Shown here: piece after piece, positions 8,243 to 44,421 of the stretch | How positions within the stretch are numbered: position 1 is the stretch's first letter | Layout of the letters: each line of letters begins with the position of its first letter | From: Ruegeria faecimaris | GTDB taxonomy: Bacteria > Pseudomonadota > Alphaproteobacteria > Rhodobacterales > Rhodobacteraceae | Reading direction: 5' to 3' | Assembly: GCF_900182615.1 (NCBI RefSeq) | Contig: NZ_FXTE01000001.1 | Coordinates: 1,054,001 to 1,118,000, forward strand | Length of the DNA stretch: 64,000 bases | Translations under genes and position numbers: made by a program | Notes under the pieces: generated by a model | Told to the model about the DNA's origin: nothing | Seen by the model: the letters and a program-made list of their open reading frames with translations, nothing else | Databases searched by the model: none

Positions 8243-8293
8243 TGCTTGGCAGTCGATTTCTGGCTTGACTCGAATCTCATGTGATGCCGATTA

Positions 8294-8307
8294 TGTAATC
8301 GATTACA
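8294..8307. promoter_or_regulatory. Perfect 14-bp palindromic LacI-type operator (site 1)
   Basis: TGTAATCGATTACA is a perfect palindrome with the central CG typical of LacI-family operators. It lies between the divergent lacI and SDR genes and is nearly identical to site 2, whose centre is 42 bp away (about four helical turns), an arrangement that would place two repressor dimers on the same face of the helix. Confidence 0.85.
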
Positions 8308-8335
8308 CAATTTGGAAAGTAGGTTTTTCCCATAA

Positions 8336-8349
8336 TGTAATCGATTGCA
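8336..8349. promoter_or_regulatory. LacI-type operator (site 2)
   Basis: TGTAATCGATTGCA differs from the perfect palindrome of site 1 at one position. It sits between site 1 and the start of the SDR gene and probably overlaps the rightward promoter. Two sites in one spacer suggest cooperative control of both arms by the adjacent LacI protein. Confidence 0.8.
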
Positions 8350-8419
8350 GTAACGATTTCGCCAAACGAGGGAAACTGATGGCATCCGAATTCAAACGCA
8401 ACAAAAGCCAGGTTCTTTG

Positions 8420-20177: not shown

Positions 20178-20188
20178 TGCCAGGGGTG

Positions 20189-22061: not shown

Positions 22062-22130
22062 TGCACAGACTCCCTATACAGATTGCCAAAAGATACGGAT
22101 AGTCGGTGCTGACAACCAAGGGGTTTTTGC

Positions 22131-25317: not shown

Positions 25318-25328
25318 TTCTTTTCCTT

Positions 25329-27125
25329 TTAGTGATTGTCGCGTGGCATGAAGCCTCGCGCAATATCGCGGTAGTTTTCTGCACCTTTGAGCGTCATACC
25401 GCGATCCAACCGATCCACTTTTTCGCGAAATATTTCCTGCCACGGGGATTGGTTGGGCGGCATTGAATACCCACCTTTTGCCTCCAGATCGCGGGCGCGT
25501 TCATGCAGTTCTTCAAGCGAAACCAGCATATCTGCTGTGCCTTTACCTAGATCGATGCGCAGTCGGTCGCCAGTTCGCACTAAGGCCAACCCACCACCCT
25601 CTGCAGCTTCGGGTGAGGCATTCAGGATAGACGGACTTCCTGATGTACCGGATTGCCGTCCATCACCGATGCAAGGAAGAGCTTCGATGCCCTGTTTCAA
25701 CAAATATGCGGGCGGCCGCATGTTCACGACCTCTGCAGCACCCGGGTATCCTTTTGGTCCCGCTCCGCGCATAATCAGAATACAGTTTGCGTCGATGTTT
25801 TCTGCGGGATCATCGATCCGATGGTGAAAATCCTCGGGCCCATCAAACACAACCGCCCTGCCCTCGAATGCATTAGGATCATCCGGGTTCGACAGGTAGG
25901 TCTCTCGAAATGCCTGTGAGATCACAGATGTCTTCATAATCGCACTCTCGAACAAGTTGCCCGAGAGATTGATGAACCCCGCCTGTTGCTTAACCGGGCT
26001 ACTGACAGGCTTGATTACGTCGCTATTCTGAGACCGGCGCGTCGAGCAGTTATTGCCCATCGTCTTACCGTTCACCGTTATCGCATCGGGATGCGGCAGC
26101 AATCCAGCATCAAGAAGCTCTCCGACAACGGCGGGAACACCCCCGGCCTGCTGGTAATCTTCGCCCAGATATTTGCCCGCAGGCTGCATGTTAACCAACA
26201 GAGGAACTTCGTGGCCAAGTTTCTGCCAGTCATCGTTGTTCAATGGAATACCAAGATGCCGGGCGATTGCATTCAGGTGAATCGGCGCGTTCGTCGATCC
26301 GCCAATCGCCGAGTTTATGACAATCGCATTCTCAAAAGCCTGACGTGTCATCACATCGCTGGGGCGTAGATCCTCCCAGACCATGTCCACAATGCGTTTA
26401 CCCGTTTCATAACTGATTTGACCGCGCTCTCGATACGGGGCAGGTATGGCTGCTGATCCCGGCAATTGCATTCCCAAGGCTTCAGCAAGCGAATTCATGG
26501 TCGTTGCTGTTCCCATCGTATTGCAATAACCAACCGAAGGTGCCGCGGCGGCTGCGATCTCCATGAACTCATCGGTGTCGATTTCGTCAGCCGCAAGGTC
26601 TTCGCGCGCTTTCCATATAACCGTGCCCGATCCAGCGCGTTCACCTTTCCACCAACCGTTGAGCATGGGGCCGACCGACAGGGCGATCGCCGGGATGTTG
26701 ACAGTCGCAGCGGCCATAAGAAGTGCGGGCGTGGTCTTGTCGCAACCAATGTTGAGAACAACGCCATCAATCGGATACCCAAATAGACTCTCAACCAAGG
26801 ACAGATAAGCCAGGTTGCGGTCGAGTGAGGCCGTTGGCCGTTTACCGGTCTCTTGTATCGGATGGACCGGTATTTCGATGCACGTTCCCCCGGCGGCGAT
26901 GATTCCATCGCGAACACGTTTGGACAATTCGATATGATGCCGGTTGCAGGGGCTCAAATCACTGCCGGTCTGGGCAATGCCAATGATCGGTTTGCCTGAT
27001 TGCAGTTCCTCACGGGTCAAACCGTAATTCAGGTATCTTTCCAGATACAATGCAGTCATCTCAAGGTTCTCAGAATTCATGAACCACTTGCGAGATCGCA
27101 AATCGTTTTTTGATACTTTTGTCAT
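25329..27125 (-). CDS. IlvD/Edd-family sugar-acid dehydratase
   Basis: A 598-residue Fe-S dehydratase. Cluster cysteines are in [20 protein letters not shown] and [20 protein letters not shown]; the C-terminal half has [20 protein letters not shown] and [18 protein letters not shown], as in pentonate dehydratases (xylonate, arabonate) rather than dihydroxyacid dehydratase. The ATG overlaps the SDR stop (ATGA). It would convert a pentonate or hexonate to the 2-keto-3-deoxy acid, which the SDR would oxidise and the FAH protein hydrolyse. The exact sugar acid cannot be told from sequence. Confidence 0.88.
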
Positions 27126-27880
27126 TGGCCTGACCAACCCCCGTCAATTATGTGCGTGTGTCCTGTGGTGAATGCACTTTCATCGCTCGCCAGATAGACG
27201 ACCAATGCGGCAATCTCTTCTGCCTTCGCCACACGCCCCATAGGCTGACGCGCAACAAATTGTGCAAGGGCTTCTTCTCTGCTGCCCAGTTGCTCTCCCA
27301 ACGCATCTACGCGGTCACGCCAGCTGGGACTGTCGACTGTTCCCGGACAAATGCAATTGCACCGAATTCCTTGTGTTATGAAGTCCACGGCTACTGATTT
27401 AGTCAGCCCAACAACAGCAGCCTTTGTCGTTCCATATACACAACGATTTGGCGCACCGATTATGGAACCCAGTGCGGAAGACATATTGATTATCGAGCCT
27501 CCTCCGCGCTCTAGCATCCCCGGCAATACAGCCTTTGTCGTGCGCACCATTGAGCGCACATTAAGGTCCATGGCGAAGTCCCATTCTTCATCGGTCGCAT
27601 CCAGAATCGTTCCGTGATGCACGAACCCGGCGCAGTTGAACAAAACGTCCGGCTTCGCTCGCGCGACCCCATGATGAATACTGTCATTATTCGTCACATC
27701 CATCTCGAAAATTTCGAGATTTTCGTGATTCTGATCGCGAATCAAATTTAAATTTCCAGGGTTAATATCCGTCGCATAGACTTTCGCACCCTCTCTTGCC
27801 ATCGCAATTACGCTTGCAAGTCCGATCCCTTGCGCGGCGGCTGTGACCAGGACGTTTTTTCCCTTAAGTCTCTCTGACAT
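27122..27880 (-). CDS. SDR, 2-keto-3-deoxy-sugar-acid 4-dehydrogenase-like
   Basis: A 252-residue short-chain dehydrogenase resembling 2-keto-3-deoxy-L-fuconate dehydrogenases (relatives of BDH2): [45 protein letters not shown], catalytic SSALGSIIG and [10 protein letters not shown], and the conserved [17 protein letters not shown]. It is the first gene of the leftward operon and is ATGA-coupled to the dehydratase. Its proposed role is oxidation of the 4-hydroxyl of the dehydratase product, giving the diketo-acid cleaved by the FAH protein. Family resemblance is strong; substrate length (C5 or C6) is open. Confidence 0.82.
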
Positions 27881-28955: not shown

Positions 28956-29920
28956 CGAGGATCCTTGTGTTAGGCGGTGGAGGAATGCTGGGCCAGAAAC
29001 TGGCTCATAGAATTTCGACCCAAGAAACTTTTGGACCAGAAGCCCAAATCTCACTGTTCGATCTCTCGTTCCCGCTCGACAGTGCGCCAGGTAAGCAAAT
29101 TGTGGGGAACTTGACTGCGCCAGGCATCGCCAAGTCTGTTGCAGCTCAGCGCCCGGTCGTCATATTCCACCTTGCAGCTATCGTTTCAGGCCAAGCTGAG
29201 AAAGACTTTGCGTTGGGCTGGGATGTCAACCTTATGGCGACCTGGGCACTGCTGAATGCACTCAGAGATGAACACGCGGCATCAGGAGGCGAGTACACGC
29301 CTCGTCTGGTTTTTGCCTCGTCCATAGCAGTTTTCGGAGCACCGTTCCCTGAAAAGATTGGCGATGAGTTCCTCTCGGCACCTTTGACCAGTTACGGAGC
29401 GCAGAAAGCAGCGTCTGAGTTGATGATCACGGATTTCAGCAGGAAAGGATACATCGACGGTATTTCCTTGCGCTTGCCCACTTTGTGTGTACGCCCGGGC
29501 AAGGCCAACGCTGCCGCTTCTTCCTTCTTTTCAGGTATAATCCGAGAGCCACTGAATGGGGATGAGGCTGTCTTACCAGTTGCCGTAACTGTTCGCCACT
29601 GGCACGCCAGCCCCCGCGCCGCTGCGACTTTTTTGACCCAAGCAGCAACACTGGACACGCAGCTTTTGAATGACAGACGCGCATTAAACATGCCGGGCGT
29701 AAGTTGCACCGTCGCCGAACAAATCGAAGCGCTGCGCGATGTGGCCGGTCAAGATGCAGTTGGCCTCATCAGGCGAGAACCCGACGAGGCAATCGAACGA
29801 ATAGTCAAGAATTGGCCGCGCGACTTTCAAACAGATCGCGCTCGGGAGTTGGGGTTCAAGGCGGAATCAAGCTTCGACGAAATCATTCAGGTGTATTTGG
29901 AAGACGATTTTCGGCTTTAG
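28952..29920 (+). CDS. denD: DenD-like NAD-dependent dehydrogenase (D-erythronate dehydrogenase family)
   Basis: A 322-residue extended-SDR protein. VLGGGGMLGQKLAHR is the NAD-binding start, FASSIAVFG and YGAQKAASELMI hold the catalytic Ser and Tyr-Lys, and RLPTLCVRPGKANAAASSF is characteristic of D-erythronate dehydrogenases rather than of nucleotide-sugar epimerases. The start is a GTG overlapping the upstream stop. The other enzymes of the C4 acid route (OtnK kinase, OtnC aldolase-type decarboxylase) are not visible nearby, so the enzyme may act in another route or the rest may be elsewhere. Confidence 0.7.
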   Translation: MTRILVLGGGGMLGQKLAHRISTQETFGPEAQISLFDLSFPLDSAPGKQIVGNLTAPGIAKSVAAQRPVVIFHLAAIVSGQAEKDFALGWDVNLMATWALLNALRDEHAASGGEYTPRLVFASSIAVFGAPFPEKIGDEFLSAPLTSYGAQKAASELMITDFSRKGYIDGISLRLPTLCVRPGKANAAASSFFSGIIREPLNGDEAVLPVAVTVRHWHASPRAAATFLTQAATLDTQLLNDRRALNMPGVSCTVAEQIEALRDVAGQDAVGLIRREPDEAIERIVKNWPRDFQTDRARELGFKAESSFDEIIQVYLEDDFRL

Positions 29921-30567
29921 TCGCCCATCGTCTTTCCAGTTAGGTGGCGTTTCAGATGATCGTGAATCTTTTCTCGTGTTAACTGCTCATCCCCTGACAA
30001 TGCTGCTTCAAGTATATCGGCATGGTGTCTTATGTTTTGAGAAATGAACTCAAAGTTCCGATCTGCCACCATCAATTGCTGTCTGAATTGCGCGTAAACT
30101 CGGCTATGCATTTGTTTTAAGGTTTCCGAGCCACAGGCAGAAATAAGCGTTTGGTGAAACTCCTTCTCCGAGGCAAACCATATCTCGATAAGGCCGCTCG
30201 GGTCGTCTGTGGAGTGTATGCGTTTTTCGATATGGCTAAGTTTGTGATGAGCGGCCGTCAATCTTGCTTCCCAATCCACTCCGCCATTGCGGATCGACAT
30301 CGCAGTGCCTTCGGCCTCCAACAAAACACGGACGTGTGTCAATTCGATAAGCTTCTGCGGCGAACGCATCGGCACGCGGAAACCTTTTTGTTCCTGAAAG
30401 TCCACCAATCCAACAGCGGCCAAACGAAAAAGGACTTCCCGAACCGCACTCGCAGAACAGCCATACTCATTACGAAGTTCTTCGGCTCTCACCTTGGCTC
30501 CATGCTCAAATCCATTAGAGATTAGGCGCATTTTAAGGTCTTGATAAATATCGATTTCTTCTTTCAT
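29917..30567 (-). CDS. GntR-family (FadR/FCD subgroup) transcriptional regulator
   Basis: A 216-residue regulator with an N-terminal winged helix (GAKVRAEELRNEYGCSASAV followed by REVLFRLAAVG) and a C-terminal FCD effector domain with metal-binding histidines (EKEFHQTLI and NIRHHADILEAA). The ATG at 30567 is chosen; an upstream in-frame ATG adds 30 residues of low-complexity sequence and seems unlikely. It converges with denD, overlapping by four bases, and diverges from the TRAP operon, which it probably controls. FCD regulators of this type respond to sugar acids. Confidence 0.88.
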   Translation of the reverse strand: MKEEIDIYQDLKMRLISNGFEHGAKVRAEELRNEYGCSASAVREVLFRLAAVGLVDFQEQKGFRVPMRSPQKLIELTHVRVLLEAEGTAMSIRNGGVDWEARLTAAHHKLSHIEKRIHSTDDPSGLIEIWFASEKEFHQTLISACGSETLKQMHSRVYAQFRQQLMVADRNFEFISQNIRHHADILEAALSGDEQLTREKIHDHLKRHLTGKTMGD

Positions 30568-30765
30568 CCAGGTATGCGCCTTCAATTTTTGTCCAAGTAG
30601 CGTCGTAAGCAATTTTTCGAATTTATGCAATAATCTCGAAATTTTTAGAAATTTCAAATTTTTCTTGTTGCATTCGATTCGTCGGCTTAACGTCTATCTG
30701 CGTGACAGCAGCGGAGGCGACAAGATCTCCCACTAAGCGCAATGCTCAACGTCTGGGAGGACACC
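30568..30765. promoter_or_regulatory. AT-rich divergent promoter region between the GntR gene and the TRAP operon
   Basis: The middle of this spacer, about 30605-30675, is strikingly AT-rich compared with its surroundings and contains overlapping symmetrical motifs (GAAATTTTTAGAAATTTC) that could serve as the regulator's operator. No standard GntR half-site could be assigned with confidence. The rest holds the strong GGGAGG ribosome-binding site of the dctP gene. Confidence 0.5.
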
Positions 30766-31779
30766 ATGAAAATAGTCAAGACAGCGGCCGTGGCGGCCGT
30801 AGCCACGACAATGGCAGCCGGTTTCGCGATGGCTGAAACAACGAAACTTAGAATTCAAACCCATTTTTCGCCCGAAACTCTTTCTGGTCAGATGGCTGCA
30901 AAATTTGTTGAAGACATTCAGGAGATGTCGAACGGCGAAATCGAAGTTGAAATGTTCTATTCCTCTTCGGTGGTCAAATCAGTTGAAACCTTCGATGCCG
31001 CTGCTACGGGAATTTTGGACTGCGACATGACGGGCGGCGGCTATCAGACCGGTAAAAATCCGGCCTTCCAGTTTGCGGGCGACCTGCTCGGCGGGTATCA
31101 GAACCCATATCAGCAAATGGCTTGGCTTCTTCATGGCGGCGGAAGAGAAGCTGTGAATGATCTATACAACGGCTACGACATGGAGTTCATCGGATGGTGG
31201 ATTCCCGGGCCGGAGTCGCTTTCTTCGACCAAGCCGATTGCAAAAGTGGACGACTTCAAAGATTGGAAATTCCGCTCCCCTCCAGGCCTTGCGACCAAAG
31301 TGTTCGCGGAACTTGGTGCTTCTCCGATCGTTATGGACTTCAACGAAATCTTTACGGCTTTGGAAACCGGTATCATTGATGGCGCGGATGCCGCGAACCT
31401 GACTAACAACGTGGGACTGGGTCTGTACGAGATCGCAGGTCACACAAACTATCCCGGTTTTCACTCGATGCCGGCAGATCACCTAGCCTGTCGCAAAGAA
31501 GTTTGGGAAGCTATGCCTGCGCACCACAAGAAGATCATGGAAGTCGCAATGGATAGCTTGGCATTGCACAATGCCACAATCAATGAAGTGCAGAACGCTC
31601 AGACTGCAAAAGACCTGAAAGCAAAAGGTGTTCAGTTGTACGAATGGTCGCCTGAAGACCTGGCAGCGTATCGCGCGGCCGTTCAGGTCGGTTGGACTGA
31701 ATTTGCGACGACCCCTGAGGCACAGGCGCTTTTGGAAAGCCACATCAACTTCCTGCGTGACCTGGGAGCAATGCAGTAG
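30766..31779 (+). CDS. dctP: TRAP transporter substrate-binding protein (DctP family)
   Basis: A 337-residue periplasmic protein with signal peptide ending at GFAMAET. The DctP family pattern is present: FVEDIQEMSNGEIEVEMF, the DFKDWKFRSP signature with the carboxylate-binding Arg near residue 170, then ELGASPIVMDFNEIFTALET and IIDGADAANLTNN. TRAP systems of this type import organic acids, often uronates or aldonates. The ATG follows GGGAGG. A hairpin follows the gene, then the enolase-superfamily enzyme and the membrane subunits, suggesting a hexuronate or hexarate ligand. Confidence 0.9.
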   Translation: MKIVKTAAVAAVATTMAAGFAMAETTKLRIQTHFSPETLSGQMAAKFVEDIQEMSNGEIEVEMFYSSSVVKSVETFDAAATGILDCDMTGGGYQTGKNPAFQFAGDLLGGYQNPYQQMAWLLHGGGREAVNDLYNGYDMEFIGWWIPGPESLSSTKPIAKVDDFKDWKFRSPPGLATKVFAELGASPIVMDFNEIFTALETGIIDGADAANLTNNVGLGLYEIAGHTNYPGFHSMPADHLACRKEVWEAMPAHHKKIMEVAMDSLALHNATINEVQNAQTAKDLKAKGVQLYEWSPEDLAAYRAAVQVGWTEFATTPEAQALLESHINFLRDLGAMQ

Positions 31780-31858: not shown

Positions 31859-33028
31859 ATGAAAATCAACAGAATAATAAGTCACATACTGCAGTACGAC
31901 ATGCCGGAAGTTCTGGGCTACTCGCAACAGTATTATGACAAGCGTACAACCCATCTGGTCGAGATTCAGACAGATGAAGGGGTAACCGGTTGGGGGGAGT
32001 GTTTTGGTCCCGGAAACGTAGCCATTGCCAACAAGTCTATCGTAGAAAAGGTAATCCAACCATTGGTCCTTGGCATGGACCCTTTGGACAAAGACGTGAT
32101 CTGGCACAAGGTGTACAACCTTCTGCGAGACCATGGCCAAAGCGGAATGCCAATACAGGCTTTGTCCGGGGTGGACATCGCACTTTGGGATATCACCGGC
32201 AAAATCTCTGGCCTCCCCCTCCATAAGCTTGTCGGCGGCGCGCATCGCACAAGCGTTCCTTGCTACGGCTACGGCATGATGCTTCGGGATGAACCGATTT
32301 CTAGTCTGGCCAGCCGTTTTGAGGAGGAAGCCGCAAAGATCAAAGAAATGGGATTTACCGCCACCAAAATGAAAACGGGCTTTGGCCCGAAGCCTGATGT
32401 GAAGCTGTGCGAAGCAGTTCGACGCGGAGTTGGTGACGACTTTCCTTATATGGTCGATGCAAACCATGCTTATACGACTTCGGACGCATTTTTTGTCGGT
32501 CGGGCGTTGGAAGAACTGGACGTATATTGGTTCGAAGAACCTGTCGCGCCAGAAGACATTGACGGGTACCGCGAATTGCGCACTTCGCTGAAAGTCAACA
32601 TCTCGGGCGGGGAGGCAGTTTTCAATCGCTGGGCTTGGCGCAATCTTCTTGAAAATCGCGGCATCGATATAGCGCAGCCAGAAGTATGCGCTTTGGGCGG
32701 TGTTTCAGAGTATCTCAGGATTCTAGCACTATGCCACGCACATTTCACTCCGGTCGTAAATCACGTCTGGGGTAGCGCCATCGCTGTCGCAACTAATCTG
32801 CATTTACTGGCGGCCATGCCCCCAATTCCAGGCGGCTTGCATCCTTGGGAGCCGATGCTGGAGTTCGACACGACGGACAACAAGTTTCGGGACGATCTGC
32901 TGACCGTACCGCTGGAAATTCAAAATCAGGTCAAGGCCAACAACGGCCGTGTCATGATCCCGACTGGCCCCGGACTGGGGGTCGAGCCGGATCGAGACTT
33001 TATCGATCACTACAGGATCGAAGGATAG
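31859..33028 (+). CDS. Enolase-superfamily enzyme resembling D-galactarolactone cycloisomerase
   Basis: A 389-residue mandelate-racemase/muconate-lactonizing family protein. Catalytic bases: the K-x-K motif in ATKMKTGFG; metal ligands Asp in MVDANHAYT, Glu in YWFEEPV and Glu in NISGGEAVF; His in VVNHVWGSAIAV. Many stretches ([52 protein letters not shown]) match the D-galactarolactone cycloisomerase Gci of Agrobacterium as I know it. That enzyme opens galactaro-1,4-lactone to a 2-keto-3-deoxy hexarate. It lies inside the TRAP operon, between binding protein and membrane subunits. A sugar-acid dehydratase of the same family is the alternative. Confidence 0.78.
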   Translation: MKINRIISHILQYDMPEVLGYSQQYYDKRTTHLVEIQTDEGVTGWGECFGPGNVAIANKSIVEKVIQPLVLGMDPLDKDVIWHKVYNLLRDHGQSGMPIQALSGVDIALWDITGKISGLPLHKLVGGAHRTSVPCYGYGMMLRDEPISSLASRFEEEAAKIKEMGFTATKMKTGFGPKPDVKLCEAVRRGVGDDFPYMVDANHAYTTSDAFFVGRALEELDVYWFEEPVAPEDIDGYRELRTSLKVNISGGEAVFNRWAWRNLLENRGIDIAQPEVCALGGVSEYLRILALCHAHFTPVVNHVWGSAIAVATNLHLLAAMPPIPGGLHPWEPMLEFDTTDNKFRDDLLTVPLEIQNQVKANNGRVMIPTGPGLGVEPDRDFIDHYRIEG

Positions 33029-33044
33029 GGACGAGGGTTACGCG

Positions 33045-33887
33045 ATGCACAAGAATTCAGGCGGACCAATTGAATGGCTCATACCGTTGGCCTTCGTCGC
33101 GACTGCCAGTTGGCTTGTTTGGCATCTCCCGGCATTCCTATTGGATTGGCTGCCTTACACCTCTGAATCCCTCAAAAGCCAGGTAACGGAAATATATCTG
33201 CGCAGCGACGTCACGCCCGAATTACCTGGCGTGTTCGGGGGGTATGTCGACATCATCGACGTGGCCGCGCTCGTCCTTCTACCGTTTCTTGCAGTGTTTG
33301 GCACCAAGACCGTGCGCCCAGCGACAATGGAGTTCGAAGGCTCGACGGTTATGGATCGTTTCGCCCTGTTCATAGGCCGAGTTACCATGATGATGATCGC
33401 AATCATGACTGTCGTCATGCTCTACGAAGTCTTCATGCGTTATATCCTGGAAAAGCCGACCGAGTGGGCCAACGAAATGACACTCTGGTTCGCCAGCTTT
33501 GTGTTTTTGATGTCTGGCTACTACGCCATGCAACAACGCAGTCACATTCGAATATTCCTGCTGTACGACGCAGTTCCACGTTGGCTTCAGCGTGTTTTTG
33601 ATACGGTTTCGACAATCCTGATCGTACTGTTTGCCTTCTTTCTGGTCTACGGCAGCTACAAACAGGTGTTCGTCAACAAGCTCTATAAATGGGAGCTTTA
33701 TGGCTCCGCCTTCAATCCTCCGATCCCGGCGACGTTGCAGCCGATGGTGCTGATCGTGATTACGCTCGTCGCAATGCAAGCAATTTTGAACTTGATCGCG
33801 GATTGGAACAAAGAACCGGAAATCCACACAGATGAACCGGACGAAGACGAAATTGAAATGATCAAACGAGCGGTGGGACAAGACTGA
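33045..33887 (+). CDS. dctQ: TRAP transporter small permease (DctQ family), long form
   Basis: A 280-residue inner-membrane protein. The DctQ core occupies roughly residues 100-255 (VMLYEVFMRYILEKPTEWAN, ALT- and MSGYYAMQQRSHIRIF-type motif). About 95 extra residues precede it, with two more hydrophobic stretches (LVWHLPAFLLDWL and DIIDVAALVLLPFLAVFG). A charged tail rich in Asp and Glu follows. Usual DctQ proteins have about 160-200 residues, so this is an extended variant. The stop overlaps the DctM start by one base. Confidence 0.85.
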   Translation: MHKNSGGPIEWLIPLAFVATASWLVWHLPAFLLDWLPYTSESLKSQVTEIYLRSDVTPELPGVFGGYVDIIDVAALVLLPFLAVFGTKTVRPATMEFEGSTVMDRFALFIGRVTMMMIAIMTVVMLYEVFMRYILEKPTEWANEMTLWFASFVFLMSGYYAMQQRSHIRIFLLYDAVPRWLQRVFDTVSTILIVLFAFFLVYGSYKQVFVNKLYKWELYGSAFNPPIPATLQPMVLIVITLVAMQAILNLIADWNKEPEIHTDEPDEDEIEMIKRAVGQD

Positions 33888-35509
33888 TGGATATTGGAAC
33901 AATCTCACTCATCCTGATGGTCGCCCTGATCGTGCTTCTGGCGATCGGAATGCCCTTGGGTCTGGCCTCGGCTTCTCTTGCTGTTCTGGTTCTGGTCCTG
34001 AAGTTTGAACCGACACTGCTTTTGAACCCGTTTTCGTTCGGCGACGGGGTTCTCACCGGTCGGCCAGGCACTGGGCCGCTCTATATTCTGGCGCAGAAGA
34101 TATACGGGCTCTTAACGGACTACGTGCTCATATCAGTTCCATTGTTTATCTTCATGGCGTCGCTGCTAGAGCGGTCCGGGATCGCGCGGGACATGTATTC
34201 GTCGTTGAATGTCTGGCTGTCCAGAACACGCGGCGGCATCGCAATCGTGACCTCGATCATGGCGGTGATCATGGCGGCCATGTCCGGCATCATCGGCGGT
34301 GAGGTTGTCCTGCTGGGCCTTATCGCCCTGCCCCAGATGCTGCGCCTCGGCTACGATCAGAATCTCGCGATCGGCGTCATCTGCGCCTCGGGGTCGCTTG
34401 GCACTATGATCCCTCCCTCGATCGTTCTGATCATCTATGGGCTGATCACCGAAACCTCGATCAAGTCGCTGTTCACCGCGTCTTTCATTCCCGGCTTCAT
34501 GTTGGCCTCGATGATCATCCTGTACATCATCATCCGCACGCAGTTGAATCCTCATCACGCTCCGCTGCCGGAGCCGGACCCGAACGACCCCGAACCGGCT
34601 GAAAAACGCAAACTGTTTGGGGCTTTCATGAGCATCGTCGTCGCCGGATTTTCCACCGTTCTGTTTATCCGGGCTGCGTTCTTCGAGCTTTCCGGATCAA
34701 ACGCTGCCAGCCAGGGTGAACCAGCGCGGCTGGGGACAGCTGACTACCTGCCCTGGTTTGCCGGCATCACGATCGTCGCCCTACTGCTGATCTTCTTCGT
34801 CTTTGGCAGAGAGCGCGCCAAAATAGGGTGGGAAATGGGCAAAGGCCTCGTTGCACCGCTGGTCGTCATCGGCGTCGTTCTCGGCTCGATCTATGGCGGG
34901 ATCACAGGCATCACCGAGGCAGCAGGCATGGGCGCCTTCGCCGTCCTGATCATCGCTATCCTGCGGGGCGAGGGATCGTTTGAGCTGGTTTGGGACAGCT
35001 TGATGCGGACGTTAAAATCCACAGGTACCATTATCTGGGTTACGATCGGGGCCGCCGCGCTGGCGGGTGCCTACACCATTGCTGGCGGGCCCCAATACGT
35101 GGCCGACCTGATCGTCGGCCAGGAGCTGCCGACCATGCTGGTCATTCTGGTGATGATGCTGATCTTGCTGTTCATGGGCGCATTCATGGATTGGGTCGGC
35201 ATCGTTCTGTTGATCATTCCGGTCTTTTTACCGATCGTCCTGCGCCTTCCCATTGAGGAAATCGGGGTCTTTGGCCAGCTAGAGCCGAGTCATGTCGCCA
35301 TCTGGTTCGGCGTCGTGTTCTGTATGAACATGCAGGTCAGCTTCCTCTCGCCACCTTTCGGACCGGCCGCGTTCTACCTGAAGTCGGTAGCCCCGCCGCA
35401 TATCAGCCTGACGGATATCTTCCGCGGCTTCCTGCCATTCATCGGGATCCAGTTGCTGGCGCTTTCCGTTCTTCTGATCTGGCCGGGCATCATCGCGCTG
35501 CTGTTGTGA
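33887..35509 (+). CDS. dctM: TRAP transporter large permease (DctM family), long form
   Basis: A 540-residue inner-membrane transporter with family landmarks LLAIGMPLGLASASLAVLVL, SVPLFIFMASLLERSGIARD and VICASGSLGTMIPPSIVLII. Compared with the usual ~430 residues it has an insertion in the middle (about residues 222-305) that contains a Pro/Asp/Glu-rich stretch and extra hydrophobic segments. It forms the channel with DctQ and takes ligand from DctP. Its 3-prime two thirds are visibly more GC-rich than the genes to the left. Confidence 0.88.
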   Translation: MDIGTISLILMVALIVLLAIGMPLGLASASLAVLVLVLKFEPTLLLNPFSFGDGVLTGRPGTGPLYILAQKIYGLLTDYVLISVPLFIFMASLLERSGIARDMYSSLNVWLSRTRGGIAIVTSIMAVIMAAMSGIIGGEVVLLGLIALPQMLRLGYDQNLAIGVICASGSLGTMIPPSIVLIIYGLITETSIKSLFTASFIPGFMLASMIILYIIIRTQLNPHHAPLPEPDPNDPEPAEKRKLFGAFMSIVVAGFSTVLFIRAAFFELSGSNAASQGEPARLGTADYLPWFAGITIVALLLIFFVFGRERAKIGWEMGKGLVAPLVVIGVVLGSIYGGITGITEAAGMGAFAVLIIAILRGEGSFELVWDSLMRTLKSTGTIIWVTIGAAALAGAYTIAGGPQYVADLIVGQELPTMLVILVMMLILLFMGAFMDWVGIVLLIIPVFLPIVLRLPIEEIGVFGQLEPSHVAIWFGVVFCMNMQVSFLSPPFGPAAFYLKSVAPPHISLTDIFRGFLPFIGIQLLALSVLLIWPGIIALLL

Positions 35510-35519
35510 GGTTGCACCC

Positions 35520-36470
35520 ATGCTGACACAAGATCAGATTGGCAAGTTCCGGACGGACGGATACCTCGTGGTCGAGGATGTAATTCCCGGCGATGTCCTG
35601 GATCGGGTACAGGCCGAATACTCGGATGTCCTGAACCGGCTCTATGACGGTTGGTACAACAAAGGGCTGGTCAAGAACGAGCCGTCGAGAATGACCTTCT
35701 GGGACAAACTTCTGTCCGCCTATCAGGCCGGTTGCGACTATTTCCAGCCGCTGGACATCTCGCTGCCCGGTGATCGGATCATGGCGGACACACCGTTACA
35801 TATTGGGCCCGCAGTGTTCGACTTGCTGACGGCCCAGCCCATGCTTGACGTTGTCGAGCAGTTGATCGGGCCAGAGTTGGTCAGCAATCCGATCCAGCAC
35901 GTTCGGCTGAAGCCCCCTGCCCTTAAGCTGTGCAAGGACGAGGTGCGCGCGCATATCACCGCAACGGACTGGCATCAGGACCGGGCGGTTGCGTTGGAGG
36001 ATGCGGACCAGACCGACATGGTCACGGTTTGGATTGCCGTCAACGATGCAACGGTTGAAAACGGCTGCTTGCAAGTGCTTCCAAAGGCACAAGACCAATC
36101 CATCCTGCCGCATTGCGCGCGGACACAGACAGGCATTGCCGACGGGTTCATTGACGAAGACCGAGCCGTGCCCCTTCCTGTCAAGGCAGGCGGGATCATC
36201 CTGTTTCACCCTCTGACGCCACATGCTTCGCTGGTCAATGAAACGGACCGGTTCCGCTGGTCGTTCGACATCCGCTTCAGTGCGACAGGCCAACCCACCG
36301 GTCGAGATCATTTCCCCAGCTTCATCGCGAGGTCCAGATCGCACCCCGAAACCGAGCTGCGAGATTGGCGCGTCTGTAAGTCCAATTGGGAAGCGGCACG
36401 AGCAAGGCTGTCCGGACAGCCGCATATAGATATTCACCGGTGGACATCGGACTCGCCGTTCTGCGCCTAG
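35520..36470 (+). CDS. PhyH-family Fe(II)/2-oxoglutarate dioxygenase (second copy)
   Basis: A 316-residue phytanoyl-CoA-dioxygenase-like protein. The iron site is HxD in TDWHQDRAVAL and the distal His in LTPHASLVNE, with Arg in RWSFDIRFSATG for 2-oxoglutarate. It is distant from the PhyH protein at 20.2 kb. It sits directly after the TRAP genes (10 bases) and before uxaA (24 bases), so it is cotranscribed with hexuronate uptake. A dioxygenase has no place in the standard uronate pathway; it may prepare a modified uronate, for example by removing an O-methyl group. That role is inference. Confidence 0.85.
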   Translation: MLTQDQIGKFRTDGYLVVEDVIPGDVLDRVQAEYSDVLNRLYDGWYNKGLVKNEPSRMTFWDKLLSAYQAGCDYFQPLDISLPGDRIMADTPLHIGPAVFDLLTAQPMLDVVEQLIGPELVSNPIQHVRLKPPALKLCKDEVRAHITATDWHQDRAVALEDADQTDMVTVWIAVNDATVENGCLQVLPKAQDQSILPHCARTQTGIADGFIDEDRAVPLPVKAGGIILFHPLTPHASLVNETDRFRWSFDIRFSATGQPTGRDHFPSFIARSRSHPETELRDWRVCKSNWEAARARLSGQPHIDIHRWTSDSPFCA

Positions 36471-36494: not shown

Positions 36495-37997
36495 ATGACT
36501 TTTGTACGTTTAGATCGAACGGATAGCGTGGTGGTTGCAACTCGGCCGCTGGAGGCCGGTAGTATGGTCGAAGATGTCTCGACCAATGCGCGCATCCCTT
36601 CGGGACACAAGGTCGCCACGCGTATGCTTGCACCCGGTGATCCGGTCAGAAAATACGCCCAGATTATCGGTTACGCCACCCAACGGATCGAACCTGGCGA
36701 CCATGTGCACACCCACAATATCGAGTTCCGTAATACCAGCGTGGACTACGAGTTTGCGACGGACCACCGGCCCATGAAACCCGCCACCTCGGTCGATACG
36801 TTCATGGGCTACCACCGGGACAACGGTCGGTTCGGTACGCGCAATTACATCGCGGTTCTGACCACCGTGAACTGTTCGGCGACTGCGGCCCGCATGATTG
36901 CCAACCACTTCACACCGGACAAGCTGGCAGAGTTTCCGAACGTCGACGGCGTGGTTGCCTTTGTCCACGGAACGGGCTGCGGAATGGCCGACTCTGGCGA
37001 CGGTTTCGAAGCTCTTCAACGGGTCATGTGGGGGTTTGCGAAACATCCCAACCACGCTGCTGTTCTGATGGTCGGTCTGGGCTGCGAGATGAACCAGATC
37101 GACTGGCTGTTGGACGCGTATGGGCTGAAGCAGAGCCCCACCTTCCATACGATGAACATCCAGAACGTCGCCGGATTGCGCCGGACCGTGGAAATGGGCA
37201 TCAGCAAGATCAACCAGATGCTGCCCCTTGCCAATGAGGCGCGGCGCAGCGAAGCCCCGGCGTCCGAACTGATGGTTGCGCTGCAATGCGGTGGATCGGA
37301 CGCTTGGTCAGGTGTGACCGCGAACCCTGCGCTCGGACATGCCTGCGACCTGTTGATTGCCCAAGGCGGCACAGGTGTCCTTGCGGAAACGCCCGAAATC
37401 TATGGAGCCGAACACCTTTTAACCCGCCGCGCCCTTGGTCGTGCAACTGGGGACAAACTGATCGGACTGATCGATTGGTGGCAGGACTATACCGCTCGCA
37501 ATCACGGTTCGATGGACAACAACCCAAGCCCCGGCAACAAGCAAGGCGGTCTGACGACCATCCTTGAGAAATCGCTGGGGGCAGCGGCGAAGGGCGGAAC
37601 CACCCCTTTGACCGGTGTATTCAAATACGCCGAACCCATCACCGCCAAAGGCTTCACCTTCATGGACAGCCCCGGATATGACCCGGCCTCGGTGACCGGG
37701 CAGATCGCGGCCGGGTGCAACCTTGTGTGCTTTACCACGGGACGCGGCTCTGCATTTGGGTCCAAACCGGCACCCACGCTGAAAATCGCTACTAACTCTG
37801 AGTTGGCAGCGCGCATGCCCGAAGACATGGACGTGGATGCGGGCGACATTCTGACCAAAGGTACCAGCGTCGAAGAAAAAGGACGGGAAATATACCAACG
37901 GCTGCTCCAAGTCGCCTCGGGCGCGCGGACCAAGTCCGAGGCGCAGGGCTTGGGTGACTACGAATTCGTTCCCTGGCAAATCGGAGCGGTGATGTGA
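36495..37997 (+). CDS. uxaA: UxaA-family altronate dehydratase (GarD/UxaA superfamily)
   Basis: A 500-residue dehydratase combining an N-terminal SAF-type domain (about residues 1-80, ending PGDHVHTHNIEF) with the large C-terminal domain (GRFGTRNYIAVLTTVNCSAT, GLGCEMNQIDW, LQCGGSDAWSGVTANPALG, NPSPGNKQGGLTTILEKS). The length matches E. coli UxaA. It converts D-altronate to 2-keto-3-deoxygluconate; galactarate dehydratase is a relative, and the neighbouring Gci-like enzyme makes a hexarate substrate possible. Coupled to the next gene by GTGA. Confidence 0.85.
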   Translation: MTFVRLDRTDSVVVATRPLEAGSMVEDVSTNARIPSGHKVATRMLAPGDPVRKYAQIIGYATQRIEPGDHVHTHNIEFRNTSVDYEFATDHRPMKPATSVDTFMGYHRDNGRFGTRNYIAVLTTVNCSATAARMIANHFTPDKLAEFPNVDGVVAFVHGTGCGMADSGDGFEALQRVMWGFAKHPNHAAVLMVGLGCEMNQIDWLLDAYGLKQSPTFHTMNIQNVAGLRRTVEMGISKINQMLPLANEARRSEAPASELMVALQCGGSDAWSGVTANPALGHACDLLIAQGGTGVLAETPEIYGAEHLLTRRALGRATGDKLIGLIDWWQDYTARNHGSMDNNPSPGNKQGGLTTILEKSLGAAAKGGTTPLTGVFKYAEPITAKGFTFMDSPGYDPASVTGQIAAGCNLVCFTTGRGSAFGSKPAPTLKIATNSELAARMPEDMDVDAGDILTKGTSVEEKGREIYQRLLQVASGARTKSEAQGLGDYEFVPWQIGAVM

Positions 37998-38998
37998 AAA
38001 GGATCCTTGTAGCCGGCGGTGGATTGATCGGTATCCGCCACGTCCGCGCCGTGATTGAGCATCCCGGCTGTATGTTGGTCGGGTTGGCCGATCCAGATGG
38101 CTCGATCAAGATAGACGTGCCGCGTTTTGCTAGTGTGGACGAGGTGCAGGACCCGGTGGATGGCGTCATCATTGCGACGCCGACCCGCCTGCATGCAGAA
38201 CATGGCATTCTGGCCGCATCCCGCGGTTGGCACATGCTAATCGAAAAGCCGGTTGCCGCATCAGTCGATGATGCCCTGCGCCTGAGGACGGCCGTTCGCC
38301 AGGCTAATGTCCGCAGCCTTGTAGGCCACCATCGGCGTTATCACACAACCTTGCAGCAACTGAAAGAAGTGATCGCGCAAGGTACGATCGGACAAGTTAT
38401 CAACGTCTCGTTGCTGTGGGCCATGCGCAAACCCGAGAGTTATTTTGAACAGAACTGGCGGACTTTCGATGGCAGCCCAGTCATGATCAACCTGGTGCAT
38501 GATATCGATGTCATGCGCTTTGTGATCGGAGAAATCTCAGATGTCGTCGCCCTGCCTGGCGCGTCGATCCGCGGATCAGATCGGATAGAAAGCGGGGCTA
38601 TCGCGATCGCGTTCGAAAACGGCGCAACGGGCACTATCAGCTTTGCCGACACCGCACCCAGCCCTTGGGGGTTTGAGGCCGGAACCGGCGAAAACCCGAA
38701 TATCGGCACAACCCGACAGGACATGATGTGGATCACTGGAACCAAGGGCGCTGTAAGTTTTCCTTCCATGACCCTGTGGCGTGGAAAGGATTGGGGCACT
38801 GCGGCCCAAAAAGACCAACTTCTACGACCGAAACAGAAACGCGAGCCGCTGGAGGCCCAGTTGGATCACTTCCTTGACGTGATCGACGGCGCCTCACCGT
38901 TGATCGACGTCGAGGATGCGGCCCGGACGCTCGAGGTCACATCACGGATAGAACAGGGGCTAAAAGCGCGGTCAGCTCGAGCGCGGGCACCGACCTGA
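37994..38998 (+). CDS. Gfo/Idh/MocA-family oxidoreductase
   Basis: A 334-residue NAD(P)-dependent dehydrogenase. Rossmann start VAGGGLIGIRHVRAV, catalytic EKP in HMLIEKPVAAS near residue 83, and the MINLVHDIDVMRF motif near residue 162 that supplies the His and Asp. The start is a GTG overlapping the uxaA stop. It belongs to the TRAP/uxaA transcript and may oxidise or reduce a uronate or a related keto-acid. Substrate not identifiable from sequence. Confidence 0.85.
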   Translation: MKRILVAGGGLIGIRHVRAVIEHPGCMLVGLADPDGSIKIDVPRFASVDEVQDPVDGVIIATPTRLHAEHGILAASRGWHMLIEKPVAASVDDALRLRTAVRQANVRSLVGHHRRYHTTLQQLKEVIAQGTIGQVINVSLLWAMRKPESYFEQNWRTFDGSPVMINLVHDIDVMRFVIGEISDVVALPGASIRGSDRIESGAIAIAFENGATGTISFADTAPSPWGFEAGTGENPNIGTTRQDMMWITGTKGAVSFPSMTLWRGKDWGTAAQKDQLLRPKQKREPLEAQLDHFLDVIDGASPLIDVEDAARTLEVTSRIEQGLKARSARARAPT

Positions 38999-39138: not shown

Positions 39139-40026
39139 ATGAGCAAACCATCAATCGGGTTTATCGGCTTGGGACTAATGGGCGGAGCCATGGTGAACCG
39201 ACTGTTGGACCAAGGATACTCGGTCACGGTATTGGGAAACCGCGACCGCACATACCTGGACGCCGCGATTGACCGAGGAGCCCGCGAGATGGAAAACGCC
39301 CACGAGCTGGCTCAGGCCAGTGACATCGTGATGCTGTGCATGGGTACCTCCGAACAGGTCGAGGGCCGTATGCGCGGTGCAGATGGAGTGATTTCGGGAT
39401 TGAAACCCGGGGCGATCGTCATCGACTTTGGCACTTCGCTTCCAGGCAGCACACGCGCCTTGGCCGAGGAGGTTGCCGCAGCCGGCGGAAGCTATCTTGA
39501 TGCGCCGCTTGGCCGTACGCCTTCGCACGCGCTAGCGGGCAAGCTCAACATTATGACTTCCGGCGACAAGGCTGCCTTTGACAAGGCCGAGCCGACACTG
39601 AAAGACTTGGGCGAAAACGTTTTTTACCTTGGCCCCGTTGGGTCCGGACACACGATCAAGCTGATCAACAACTTCTTCGGAATGACCGTCGCGAACGCAA
39701 TGGCCGAAGCCTTTGCCATGGCAGATATTACCGGTGTTGACCGCAAGCAGGTGTATGACGTTATGGCCGCAGGGCCGCTGCATTCCGGAATGATGGATTT
39801 CGTCAAAGCCTACGGCGTCGAGGATGACCCAAATCAGCTGGCCTTTGCCATCAAGAACGCGGCAAAAGACCTTGGGTATTATGACCGCATGGCACACGAG
39901 GCAGGCGTTACCAGCGTGATGTCGCAGGGCGCGCTTTCGGCGCTGATTGACGCGCGCGACCACGGTCAGGCGGACGACATGGTCAGCCAGATGGTTGACT
40001 ACTACGTCAAGCGTTTCAACACCTGA
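39139..40026 (+). CDS. Beta-hydroxyacid dehydrogenase (GarR/GlxR-like)
   Basis: A 295-residue NAD(P)-dependent enzyme. FIGLGLMGGAMVNRLL is the Rossmann start; DAPLGRTPSHALAGKLNIM is the substrate loop (with LGRTPSHA in place of the usual VSGGxxGA); catalytic Lys lies in TIKLINNFFG. It is 140 bases downstream of the Gfo/Idh/MocA gene and three bases before the EamA transporter gene. The changed substrate loop argues for a substrate other than tartronate semialdehyde. The 140-base spacer holds nothing recognisable besides a ribosome-binding site. Confidence 0.82.
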   Translation: MSKPSIGFIGLGLMGGAMVNRLLDQGYSVTVLGNRDRTYLDAAIDRGAREMENAHELAQASDIVMLCMGTSEQVEGRMRGADGVISGLKPGAIVIDFGTSLPGSTRALAEEVAAAGGSYLDAPLGRTPSHALAGKLNIMTSGDKAAFDKAEPTLKDLGENVFYLGPVGSGHTIKLINNFFGMTVANAMAEAFAMADITGVDRKQVYDVMAAGPLHSGMMDFVKAYGVEDDPNQLAFAIKNAAKDLGYYDRMAHEAGVTSVMSQGALSALIDARDHGQADDMVSQMVDYYVKRFNT

Positions 40027-40029
40027 TCG

Positions 40030-40911
40030 ATGGCCGTCACCGCCAGCCCCACTGCGGACCTGCCGCGCCTTGGCATCGTGCTGATGTTGACGGCGTGGCT
40101 ATTCTTTTCGCTGGTGGATCTTGGGGCCAAGTGGTTGGCGTTGGCGGGCGTGCCGGCATTTCAGTTGGCATTCATGCGCTATGCGGGGCACTTTGTGATC
40201 TCTGTGGGCGTGATCGCCAAGGGCGGGATTGAGGCCAGCAGGTTCAAGACCGACCATCCATGGCAGGTCATTAGCCGGGCCTTGCTGCTGATCTCGGCGA
40301 CCGTTTTCAATTTTTATGCCCTGCGGTTTTTGCCTCTGACCGTCGTGTCAGCAATCATGTTCTCAAGCCCGGTCATCGTGTGTTTTCTGTCCGTCTTCGT
40401 TTTGAAAGAACGCGTGGGTCCATGGCGTTGGGCGGCTATTACCCTGGGCTTTCTGGGGGTGTTGGTTGTCGTGCGGCCGTTTGGTTCAGCCTTTCATCCG
40501 ACCATGCTGTTGATCGTCTACAATGCCACCGCTTTGGCCTTGTACTCGATCATGACGCGCAAGCTGTCCGGGGTTGTTGCCGTGGACACCATGCAATTCT
40601 ACCTTGGGCTTACCGGGACGGTGGTTCTGCTGCCGTTCGCCATATGGTTTTGGGTCCAGCCAGAAAACACGTGGAGCCTGATTGTACTGATCGGCCTTGG
40701 CGTCTTTGGCTGGTGCGGGCATCAACTATTGACGAACGCGCATCGGTTCGGAACGGCGAACCAGTTGATGCCATTCACCTATTCGTTCCTGATCTACGTT
40801 GCGATTTGGGGCTATTTGTTCTTTGACACGGTACCGGGCGCATTCACTTTGGCAGGGGCTGTTCTAATCATGACTGCCGGTCTCATCATCTGGAAGAGAG
40901 AAAAGAAATGA
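40030..40911 (+). CDS. EamA/DMT-family transporter
   Basis: A 293-residue inner-membrane protein with about ten hydrophobic segments and two EamA repeats (first with LKERVGPWRWAAITLGFLGV, second ending TVPGAFTLAGAVLIMTAGLI). Members export or import small metabolites such as sugars, amino acids or nucleotides. It starts three bases after the GarR-like gene and overlaps kdgK by ATGA, so it is part of the sugar-acid transcript. Substrate unknown. Confidence 0.85.
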   Translation: MAVTASPTADLPRLGIVLMLTAWLFFSLVDLGAKWLALAGVPAFQLAFMRYAGHFVISVGVIAKGGIEASRFKTDHPWQVISRALLLISATVFNFYALRFLPLTVVSAIMFSSPVIVCFLSVFVLKERVGPWRWAAITLGFLGVLVVVRPFGSAFHPTMLLIVYNATALALYSIMTRKLSGVVAVDTMQFYLGLTGTVVLLPFAIWFWVQPENTWSLIVLIGLGVFGWCGHQLLTNAHRFGTANQLMPFTYSFLIYVAIWGYLFFDTVPGAFTLAGAVLIMTAGLIIWKREKK

Positions 40912-41771
40912 CGCGAATTGCCTGCATCGGCGAAGCAATGATCGAATTGTCCATGCTGGAAACCGGTGCAAAGGTGGGCGTCGCGGGGGATACGCTGAAC
41001 ACGGCCATCTACATGCACCGCGCCGCTCCTGATCTGCAGGTGGAGTATATGACATGTCTGGGCGACGACCCGTTCTCAGGGCGCATCGCCGGCTTTATCG
41101 CCAGTCATGGAATCGGGACATCCGGCATCCGCATCATTCCCAACGCTTCTCCGGGACTATACGCGATCACGACCTCTGCGGACGGTGAACGCAGCTTTAC
41201 CTATTGGCGCAGCGAGGCGGCCGCCCGCCAGCTTTTTGCCGATCATGACTTCAGCTCGCTGAAAGGTTACGACGTGCTGTACTTGTCAGGGATTTCCGTG
41301 GCCATTCTTCCGCATTCGGTGAGGCTTGCGCTTCTGGACTGGCTAGAAGGCTCTTCAGTTCGGTTGGTCTATGACAGCAATTTTCGTCCGCGTCTCTGGG
41401 ACAGCGTCGAACACGCCCGGCAGATCAACCAACGGCTTTGGCAGCGTGCAGATATTGCCCTACCATCCATCGACGATGAGATGGCACTGTTCGGGGAAAG
41501 CGCGGATCAAGTGGCGGCACGCTTTGCCGATCATCACGGTGTCGGTGCATTGAAACGCGGAGAGGATGGCCCTCTGCCCATTGGTCAGAACATTGACCAA
41601 ACCTATGAGCCTGCCAAAAACGTGCTGGATACCACAGCGGCGGGCGACAGTTTCAACGGTGGCTACCTCGCTGCCTTGCTGACAGGAAAATCGCAGGCCA
41701 AGGCCCTGATGGCCGGACACAATCTGGCGTCCACCGTTGTTCAGTTCCGCGGCGCGATCATTCCCGGATAA
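40908..41771 (+). CDS. kdgK: 2-keto-3-deoxygluconate kinase (PfkB family)
   Basis: A 287-residue sugar kinase. The N-terminal RIACIGEAMIELSM, the YWRSEAAARQLF substrate stretch and the C-terminal catalytic motif DTTAAGDSFNGGYLAAL with its Asp base are typical of KdgK. It phosphorylates 2-keto-3-deoxy-D-gluconate, the shared product of the UxuA and UxaA routes, before aldol cleavage. It is slightly shorter than the usual ~305 residues. The 3-prime end overlaps the convergent uxuB gene by 14 bases. No KDPG aldolase gene is visible in the window. Confidence 0.88.
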   Translation: MTRIACIGEAMIELSMLETGAKVGVAGDTLNTAIYMHRAAPDLQVEYMTCLGDDPFSGRIAGFIASHGIGTSGIRIIPNASPGLYAITTSADGERSFTYWRSEAAARQLFADHDFSSLKGYDVLYLSGISVAILPHSVRLALLDWLEGSSVRLVYDSNFRPRLWDSVEHARQINQRLWQRADIALPSIDDEMALFGESADQVAARFADHHGVGALKRGEDGPLPIGQNIDQTYEPAKNVLDTTAAGDSFNGGYLAALLTGKSQAKALMAGHNLASTVVQFRGAIIPG

Positions 41772-44319: not shown

Positions 44320-44421
44320 TTCTTCCTCCGATACTGCTGCCCGCAATTGTTAACACAGTTTTTAATGGTTGCATCTTTCCCGTTCGAACCCGCAGACTGA
44401 CCGGGTGATCCGGGGGAATGA
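44320..44421. promoter_or_regulatory. Divergent promoter region between uxaC and the Gfo/uxuA operon
   Basis: This 102-base spacer must contain promoters for both directions. An eight-base palindrome TGTTAACA at 44348-44355, within TTGTTAACACA, resembles a GntR-type half-site arrangement and could bind the FCD regulator encoded at 29.9 kb. A GGAGG site serves the TTG start of uxaC. The operator call is tentative. Confidence 0.4.

Follow-up and report, generated by a model that had tools for sequence, protein, structure and literature searches.

A PhyH-family oxygenase gene in a TRAP transporter–dehydratase operon of Ruegeria faecimaris: a candidate optional enzyme for modified sugar acids

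Gene organization of the locus

The window, that is, the whole stretch of 64,000 nucleotides of the Ruegeria faecimaris genome that was analysed, holds a gene for a PhyH-family protein, PhyH-A, within a run of plus-strand genes that would serve the import and breakdown of a sugar acid. The genes of this run and those diverging from it are the following:

23553..27880, minus strand: divergent group of a 2-hydroxyacid dehydrogenase, a FAH hydrolase, an IlvD/EDD dehydratase and an SDR
29917..30657, minus strand: divergent FCD-type GntR regulator (PF07729)
30742..31779, plus strand: TRAP solute-binding protein DctP (PF03480; nearest solved relatives 4pe3 and lactate/2-oxoacid receptors)
31859..33028, plus strand: enolase-superfamily sugar-acid dehydratase/cycloisomerase-like protein (PF13378; best PDB matches 4ggb/4hpn and 5olc)
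33045..33887, plus strand: TRAP small permease DctQ (PF04290)
33887..35509, plus strand: TRAP large permease DctM (PF06808)
35520..36470, plus strand: PhyH-A, predicted PhyH-family Fe(II)/2-oxoglutarate oxygenase of 316 aa (PF05721, AF2 model, fold matches)
36495..37997, plus strand: UxaA/GarD-family sugar-acid dehydratase (PF20629, PF04295 and SAF)
37994..38998, plus strand: Gfo/Idh/MocA oxidoreductase (PF01408)
39139..40026, plus strand: beta-hydroxyacid dehydrogenase, tartronate-semialdehyde-reductase-like (PF03446/PF14833; 31% identity to E. coli GarR)
40030..40911, plus strand: EamA permease (PF00892)
40908..41771, plus strand: 2-keto-3-deoxygluconokinase-like (KdgK-like) PfkB kinase (NF052444, 271.8 bits of a 400 cut-off)

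The order on the plus strand is dctP, the enolase-superfamily gene, dctQ, dctM, phyH, the UxaA/GarD dehydratase gene and the Gfo/Idh/MocA gene, followed after a gap of 140 nt by the genes for the beta-hydroxyacid dehydrogenase, the EamA permease and the KdgK-like kinase. The initial annotation had placed phyH between dctM and a uxaA-type gene with short spacers, and this is borne out by the 10 nt from the dctM stop (35509) to the phyH start and the 24 nt from the end of phyH to the UxaA/GarD-family ORF (36495). Genes of the isomerase hexuronate route are found nearby: UxaC and UxuB (41758-44346) are encoded on the strand opposite to phyH and UxuA (47473) in a separate plus-strand run, and these three genes and that of the KdgK-like kinase all start within 12 kb of phyH. 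Three Gfo/Idh/MocA dehydrogenase genes stand in tandem ahead of UxuA (44422-47485), with matches in several relatives.

Predicted active site and fold of PhyH-A

The phyH-A reading frame is intact (316 codons), and PF05721 matches its product over the whole domain with 97.2 bits against a gathering cut-off of 22 (E 2.1e-27). Genome-wide, PF05721 detects four members of the family, and the window contains two of these genes. In an alignment of 30 of the 37 family copies found, which are 56-73% identical to the window protein, residues H152, D154, H235, R246 and K131 are invariant. The first three are presumably the iron ligands of the HxD...H triad and the last two the residues expected to hold 2-oxoglutarate (2OG), as in the rest of the family, and judged by these residues the active site is intact.

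The AlphaFold (AF2) model (pLDDT 92.2) aligns with 2a1x (Z 20.1, rmsd 2.9, 215 residues aligned) and with 6zyl (Z 20.0, rmsd 3.7, 245 aligned); because many structures tie within 1 Z, the fold names no substrate. The solved relatives include several hydroxylases (proline hydroxylase H11, GriE, and EctD, with Z 17-20), and PHYHD1 is matched by sequence (E 4.2e-11). None of the NCBIfam models reaches its cut-off on PhyH-A, with the methylphosphonate hydroxylase model giving 37.9 of 500 bits. PhyH-type halogenases such as SyrB2 hold Ala or Gly in place of the triad Asp; a halogenase is ruled out by the invariant D154 in the 30 aligned copies and by the score of the chlorinating-enzyme model TIGR01762, 42.1 bits against a cut-off of 226.3. 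PhyH-A shares the fold and the expected Fe/2OG site with other members of PF05721 (human PHYH, PHYHD1, EvdO2, and ThoJ), from which it differs by its low identity to these solved proteins (about 20-25%) and by its genomic context.

Conservation of the operon slot

PhyH relatives were found at 527 places of a collection of species-level genomes, and the best 80 were kept, a set that is hence biased to close kin. The closest named relatives of PhyH-A, with 95-96% identity, come from R. arenilitoris, R. atlantica, and R. lacuscaerulensis. The best 80 of the 527 loci include records named Ruegeria, Roseobacter, Sulfitobacter, and Rhizobiaceae, and the context of phyH is similar in those named Rhodobacteraceae and Rhizobiaceae. 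In 67 of 74 of these loci (six more are located at a contig edge), the closest match on the upstream side of phyH is DctM, no more than 250 nt away, and a homologue of the UxaA-type dehydratase is encoded within 250 nt downstream in 68 of the 80. From these counts, the dctM-phyH-dehydratase arrangement is judged not to be due to chance.

The flanks of the same best 80 of 527 loci hold matches to UxaA in 71 cases, to EamA in 67, to the beta-hydroxyacid dehydrogenase in 65, to Gfo/Idh in 52 (with identities as low as 32%), to SDR2 in 51, to KdgK in 38, to UxaC and UxuB in 29 each, and to FAH in 20. These matches were labelled by the top-scoring window gene, some being only 30-50% identical, and SDR2, EDD, and FAH are undercounted because flanks of 9 kb end before the upstream group is covered. 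Within the family, 37 of 198 genomes hold PhyH-A at E <= 1e-20, 36 of them with 54-100% identity and one with 40%. The 54% copy (locus L046) and the 40% copy (L047) have neither the transporter nor the dehydratase beside PhyH. A phylum-wide search with the PhyH profile at E <= 1e-40 reaches 6 of 398 genomes, including that of the window, and gives no informative distant context because all six belong to the same family.

A second PhyH family in the same neighbourhoods

Seven PhyH queries run on the same neighbourhoods brought up PhyH-B (reference L044:845-1732), a distinct second family with 25% identity to PhyH-A. It is present in 10 of the 28 loci that hold both PhyH-A and the dehydratase, and, at 61% identity or more, in 30 of the 80 named loci (among L068-L147, the best 80 of 527). 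PhyH-B directly follows PhyH-A in L041 (L041:10262-11308) and L044, and weaker relatives are encoded farther off and on the other strand in L059, L182, and L184. The window genome's three remaining PhyH proteins do not look orthologous to PhyH-B, giving 28-29% identity or no match; for two of the three, only a domain stretch was compared.

Relatives of PhyH-B are also found in other settings. On a Pantoea dispersa plasmid (L031:11062-16598), relatives of PhyH-B (38%) and PhyH-A (41%) stand side by side, followed by genes for a B12-binding radical SAM protein and a TylF-type O-methyltransferase, with a tyrosine-tRNA ligase on the other strand, a locus that looks biosynthetic. A Skermanella plasmid carries a PhyH-B relative (48%) adjoining TRAP genes, an SDR, a FAH, and enolase-superfamily genes; this FAH is 57% identical to the window FAH, and the SDR only 30% to the window SDR. 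An MFS transporter gene and one for a sugar phosphate isomerase adjoin a copy on a Bradyrhizobium plasmid (46%). On a Cupriavidus plasmid (L191:6007-11488), a PhyH-B-like gene directly precedes phosphonate ABC transporter genes and a phosphonate dehydrogenase, a layout that presumably resembles the hypophosphite dioxygenase arrangement. The wider family is not tied to sugars, because more distant relatives adjoin phosphonate-type transport genes.

PhyH-A as an optional component of the operon

Orthologues of the dehydratase, defined by an identity of at least 66%, occur in 57 of the 198 family genomes, 31 with PhyH-A (E <= 1e-20) and 26 without, and the 26 PhyH-less neighbourhoods were compared with the window and 36 PhyH loci. 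The dehydratase orthologue is encoded in the stretch around PhyH in 28 of the 37 PhyH loci; of the nine genomes whose PhyH locus lacks it, three have it elsewhere and six reach 66% nowhere. DctP, DctQ, and DctM are all kept upstream in 13 of the 26 PhyH-less loci, where DctM and the dehydratase are separated by 46-229 nt in ten cases and by an enolase-type gene in three. This comparison favours the idea of the initial annotation that a 2OG oxygenase belongs with an operon for uptake and degradation of the sugar-acid type. PhyH-A is probably an add-on ahead of the core pathway, given that the operon persists in relatives that lack it.

On a tree of DctM, which includes the PhyH-less row L162 with DctM 6.5 kb from the dehydratase, the presence of PhyH needs 10 changes, 8 of which are forced by starred branches (36 of 54 loci); as few changes are reached in 192 of 500 shuffles, so that its clustering does not exceed that of random labels. 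The dehydratase tree, with 54 rows and only two starred branches, needs 16 changes, two of them forced. For distances between copies, the correlation of PhyH with four operon partners (DctP, DctM, UxaA, and the beta-hydroxyacid dehydrogenase) has r between 0.36 and 0.53, compared with 0.37-0.73 among the four themselves, so that PhyH seems to travel with the operon. Such parallel divergence is better explained by multiple losses of the gene than by multiple gains. Remnants of the gene are found in the slot of two relatives. In L184, PhyH residues 1-54 and 263-313 are left at 50-53% identity between the transporter and the dehydratase (about 8085-8420 in search orientation), the catalytic core being gone, while in L181 a match to residues 254-309 (38%, E 3e-8) falls in the gap between DctM and the dehydratase. 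Short opposite-strand matches in L179, L183, and L184 (E 0.002 to 0.05) were treated as chance. The simplest account of these patterns would be an ancestral phyH that was lost many times while the pathway was retained.

When the 26 loci without PhyH-A were screened for a substitute oxygenase, with PhyH-type queries only, 22 gave no match at E <= 1e-6. In the remaining four, PhyH-B is encoded near the dehydratase (L167 and L185) or farther off on the other strand (L182 and L184). Not all 13 complete PhyH-A-less operons do without a PhyH enzyme, therefore, because L167 and L185 carry PhyH-B and L184 a relative.

Among the loci with DctM (26 with PhyH and 16 without), the only gene correlated with PhyH is Gfo/Idh (p 0.047), which is not significant after correction for 24 tests. 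When all 28 PhyH-positive and 26 PhyH-negative loci are compared, DctP (23 of 28 versus 13 of 26, p 0.02), DctQ and DctM (p 0.008), Gfo/Idh (p 0.011), EamA (p 0.045), and GntR (p 0.020) are commoner with PhyH, and the 2-hydroxyacid dehydrogenase is rarer (p 0.037).

Ligand class of the transporter and type of pathway

The DctP model (pLDDT 80.6) aligns with the lactate receptor 2zzx (Z 35.5, rmsd 2.6, 314 aligned), with 4pe3 (Z 35.2, rmsd 3.3, 312 aligned), and with the 2-oxoacid receptor 2hzk (Z 33.0, rmsd 2.5, 312 aligned). Lower scores are obtained for 4x8r (Z 29.6, rmsd 3.3, 301 aligned), 4ovq (Z 29.5, rmsd 3.0, 299 aligned), 4ovr (Z 28.8, rmsd 3.2, 296 aligned), and 4n15 (Z 28.6, rmsd 3.3, 300 aligned), which are presumably uronate-bound structures. 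With a sequence profile, too, the high-ranking matches (E 1e-67 to 5e-41) include 4pe3, 2zzv (a lactate receptor), and 7ug8 (a keto-acid receptor), and 4n15 is matched at E 1e-21. A uronate-binding DctP, though still conceivable, is not supported by this ranking, in which receptors of lactate and 2-oxoacids stand above the structures taken as uronate-bound. An aldonate is a possible ligand, because lactate, like the aldonates, is a 2-hydroxy acid.

Identities of the window UxaA homologue are 37% with E. coli UxaA over 491 columns, 33% with GarD over the 406 GarD residues compared, and 54% with a paralogue of this genome. With the galactarate dehydratase model TIGR03248 the homologue scores 361.5 bits, below the cut-off of 730.85. 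According to the available text of PMC6336799, the dehydratases of D-arabinonate and D-idonate belong to the UxaA/GarD superfamily, as do, judged by gene context, those of L-fuconate and L-galactonate. The 54% paralogue (L155:9056-15428, contig C3) is encoded with a sugar ABC transporter, an aldo-keto reductase, an amidohydrolase, an SDR, and a FAH; with these neighbours named by eye from their translations, the locus resembles an L-fucose route.

The best solved relatives of the window SDR (27122-27880) are 8y11, 8xwk, and 8y4j (E near 3e-84; 2.7e-84 for 8y11 and 8xwk), and human DHRS6 (2ag5), presumably BDH2, ties with them at E 4.6e-84. The former three are structures of L-2-keto-3-deoxyfuconate (L-KDF) 4-dehydrogenase, and human BDH2 is a homologue of this enzyme that also uses L-KDF, as stated in the available text of PMC11199699. 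For the window FAH (24469-25443), the best model is that of 2,4-didehydro-3-deoxy-L-rhamnonate hydrolase, with 425.4 bits, below its cut-off of 500. The presence of SDR2 or FAH alone says little, because both are widespread in the family (homologues in 110 and 172 of the 198 genomes, respectively, at the limits used). The enolase-type gene product is closest, among PDB matches, to 4ggb/4hpn, a galactarolactone cycloisomerase, and to 5olc, a 3,6-anhydro-D-galactonate cycloisomerase (available text of PMC5698469).

The UxaA/GarD dehydratase, the L-KDF-dehydrogenase-like SDR, and the FAH hydrolase share the window neighbourhood, with the SDR and FAH in the divergent group 7-12 kb off, and together they look more like a non-phosphorylative aldonate route than like the hexuronate route. 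These three components are, at the family level, common to the window and to the non-phosphorylative Route III and the L-fucose route of Herbaspirillum, as far as the latter are described in the available text of PMC6336799 and PMC11199699. Unlike these routes, the window system has TRAP import and an extra PhyH oxygenase; it also differs in that no sugar 1-dehydrogenase or lactonase was recognised among the operon genes scanned. The gene mixture points to a sugar acid, and not to a hexuronate in particular, while the galactarolactone likeness of the enolase-type gene would leave an oxidative uronate route open.

Proposed role of PhyH-A and alternative explanations

PhyH-A is, on balance, probably an Fe(II)/2OG oxygenase working as an optional entry enzyme that makes a modified imported sugar acid acceptable to the dehydratase. 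The TRAP system would import a sugar acid bearing a modification, PhyH-A would oxidise it to a substrate of the UxaA-type (or enolase-type) dehydratase, and the 2-keto-3-deoxy product would enter the kinase or the SDR/FAH route; the catalysis, the order of the steps, and the modified sugar acid as substrate are all predicted. An entry enzyme that widens the range of substrates is suggested because the pathway is kept with or without PhyH, whose slot beside the importer is fixed.

O-demethylation with release of formaldehyde, a reaction chemically natural for a 2OG oxygenase, is put forward tentatively. Hydroxylation of a deoxy sugar acid is given slightly less weight as the reaction, and would fit the fucose/rhamnose-like neighbouring genes equally well as O-demethylation. 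It is conceivable, if doubtful, that PhyH-A, often together with PhyH-B, is a non-P450, 2OG-dependent oxidative demethylase or deoxy-position hydroxylase of sugar acids that channels methylated or deoxygenated sugar acids into a TRAP/dehydratase pathway and works as a removable plug-in in a constant operon. Its logical role would then match that of the demethylase of 6-O-methyl-D-galactose in marine Flavobacteriia, which converts a methoxy sugar into a sugar of the core pathway, according to the available text of PMC10033563. That enzyme is, however, a cytochrome P450 with ferredoxin partners that acts on a neutral sugar, and its class is unrelated to PhyH-A, for which demethylation is a proposal.

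Several findings count against an entry enzyme, including the nine PhyH loci without a nearby dehydratase, the lone copies of L046 and L047, the PhyH-B genes of some PhyH-A-less operons, and the relative (41%) in the biosynthetic-looking locus of Pantoea. The optionality of PhyH-A would equally agree with action on an intermediate or a by-product. Hydroxylation of an unmethylated sugar acid or of a later intermediate, as a true step of the pathway rather than at its entry, would agree with the hydroxylases among the solved relatives and with the SDR/FAH module of fucose/rhamnose type. An obligate step, however, is not expected to be missing from 13 operons with transporter and dehydratase, even if two of the 13 carry PhyH-B, and this explanation is regarded as unlikely. 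That PhyH makes a secondary metabolite or a signal as a mere passenger of the operon is considerably less probable: the Pantoea relative with its second PhyH, B12 radical SAM protein, and TylF-type methyltransferase would speak for it, as would L046 and L047, which lack a sugar-acid context, but the slot and orientation are fixed in 67 of 74 loci (from the best 80 of 527), alike in records named Rhodobacteraceae and Rhizobiaceae. The repeated losses and the remnants in relatives could also suggest a decaying, inactive gene; with phyH intact here and the metal and 2OG residues unchanged in 30 aligned copies with identities down to 56%, this is hardly credible.

The initial annotation had proposed that PhyH demethylates 4-O-methyl-D-glucuronate so that UxaC, UxuB, and UxaA can act, within what it called a hexuronate operon. 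Extended to UxuA, this would be a special case of the entry enzyme, and is very improbable as such. It is favoured by the closeness to phyH of the genes for UxaC, UxuB, UxuA, and the KdgK-like kinase and by the matches to UxaC and UxuB in the best 80 of 527 loci; furthermore, oxygenase demethylation of a methoxy sugar is known from porphyran, through a P450 (available text of PMC10033563). Nevertheless, the isomerase hexuronate route (UxaC-UxuB-UxuA / UxaA), whose members adjoin the operon in the window, is not conserved with PhyH. UxaC is encoded in 15 of the 37 PhyH genomes and absent from 22, some genomes being incomplete, compared with 64 of 198 in the family overall, and a dependence of PhyH on UxaC was rejected on these numbers. 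It is found within 8 kb of the dehydratase in just 3 of 28 PhyH-positive and 1 of 26 PhyH-negative loci. The glucuronate branch, moreover, runs via UxuA and not via UxaA, and DctP ranks closer to lactate and 2-oxoacid receptors than to those of uronates. 4-O-methyl-glucuronate is liberated from xylan by alpha-glucuronidases of families GH67 and GH115, each found in 0 of 198 relatives (control genomes were positive in 4 of 14 and 2 of 14, respectively), so that the xylan-derived acid was dropped as a lead, uptake of the free acid being still compatible. The combinations searched in the literature gave no paper joining PhyH with 4-O-methyl or glucuronate demethylation, with TRAP, or with altronate dehydratase.

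With UxaC and UxuB on the opposite strand, UxuA in another run, and UxaC and UxuB each matched in 29 of the 80 loci, the hexuronate label is not supported, and neither is the named substrate, 4-O-methyl-glucuronate, which is among the less likely ones for PhyH-A. The idea of an accessory oxygenase is strengthened. Should PhyH-A turn out to admit modified sugar acids to a common pathway, it would identify a flow of carbon in marine bacteria that present annotation misses. Close relatives that naturally differ in whether the operon includes PhyH make its substrate directly testable through their growth.

Other oxygenases of the window

The three different oxygenases that the initial annotation counted in the window are present at the family level (5977-7152, 20189-21016, and 35520-36470). 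The first is a fatty-acid-desaturase-fold protein (PF00487), for which none of the NCBIfam models reaches its cut-off, encoded near a LacI regulator, sugar-type ABC transporter genes, and Gfo/Idh dehydrogenases. The second is the other PhyH of the window (20189-21016), which adjoins, within 20189-22898, genes for an L-idonate-5-dehydrogenase-like Zn-ADH and a gluconate-5-dehydrogenase-like SDR, and whose end is overlapped by a transposase ORF (19512-20243).
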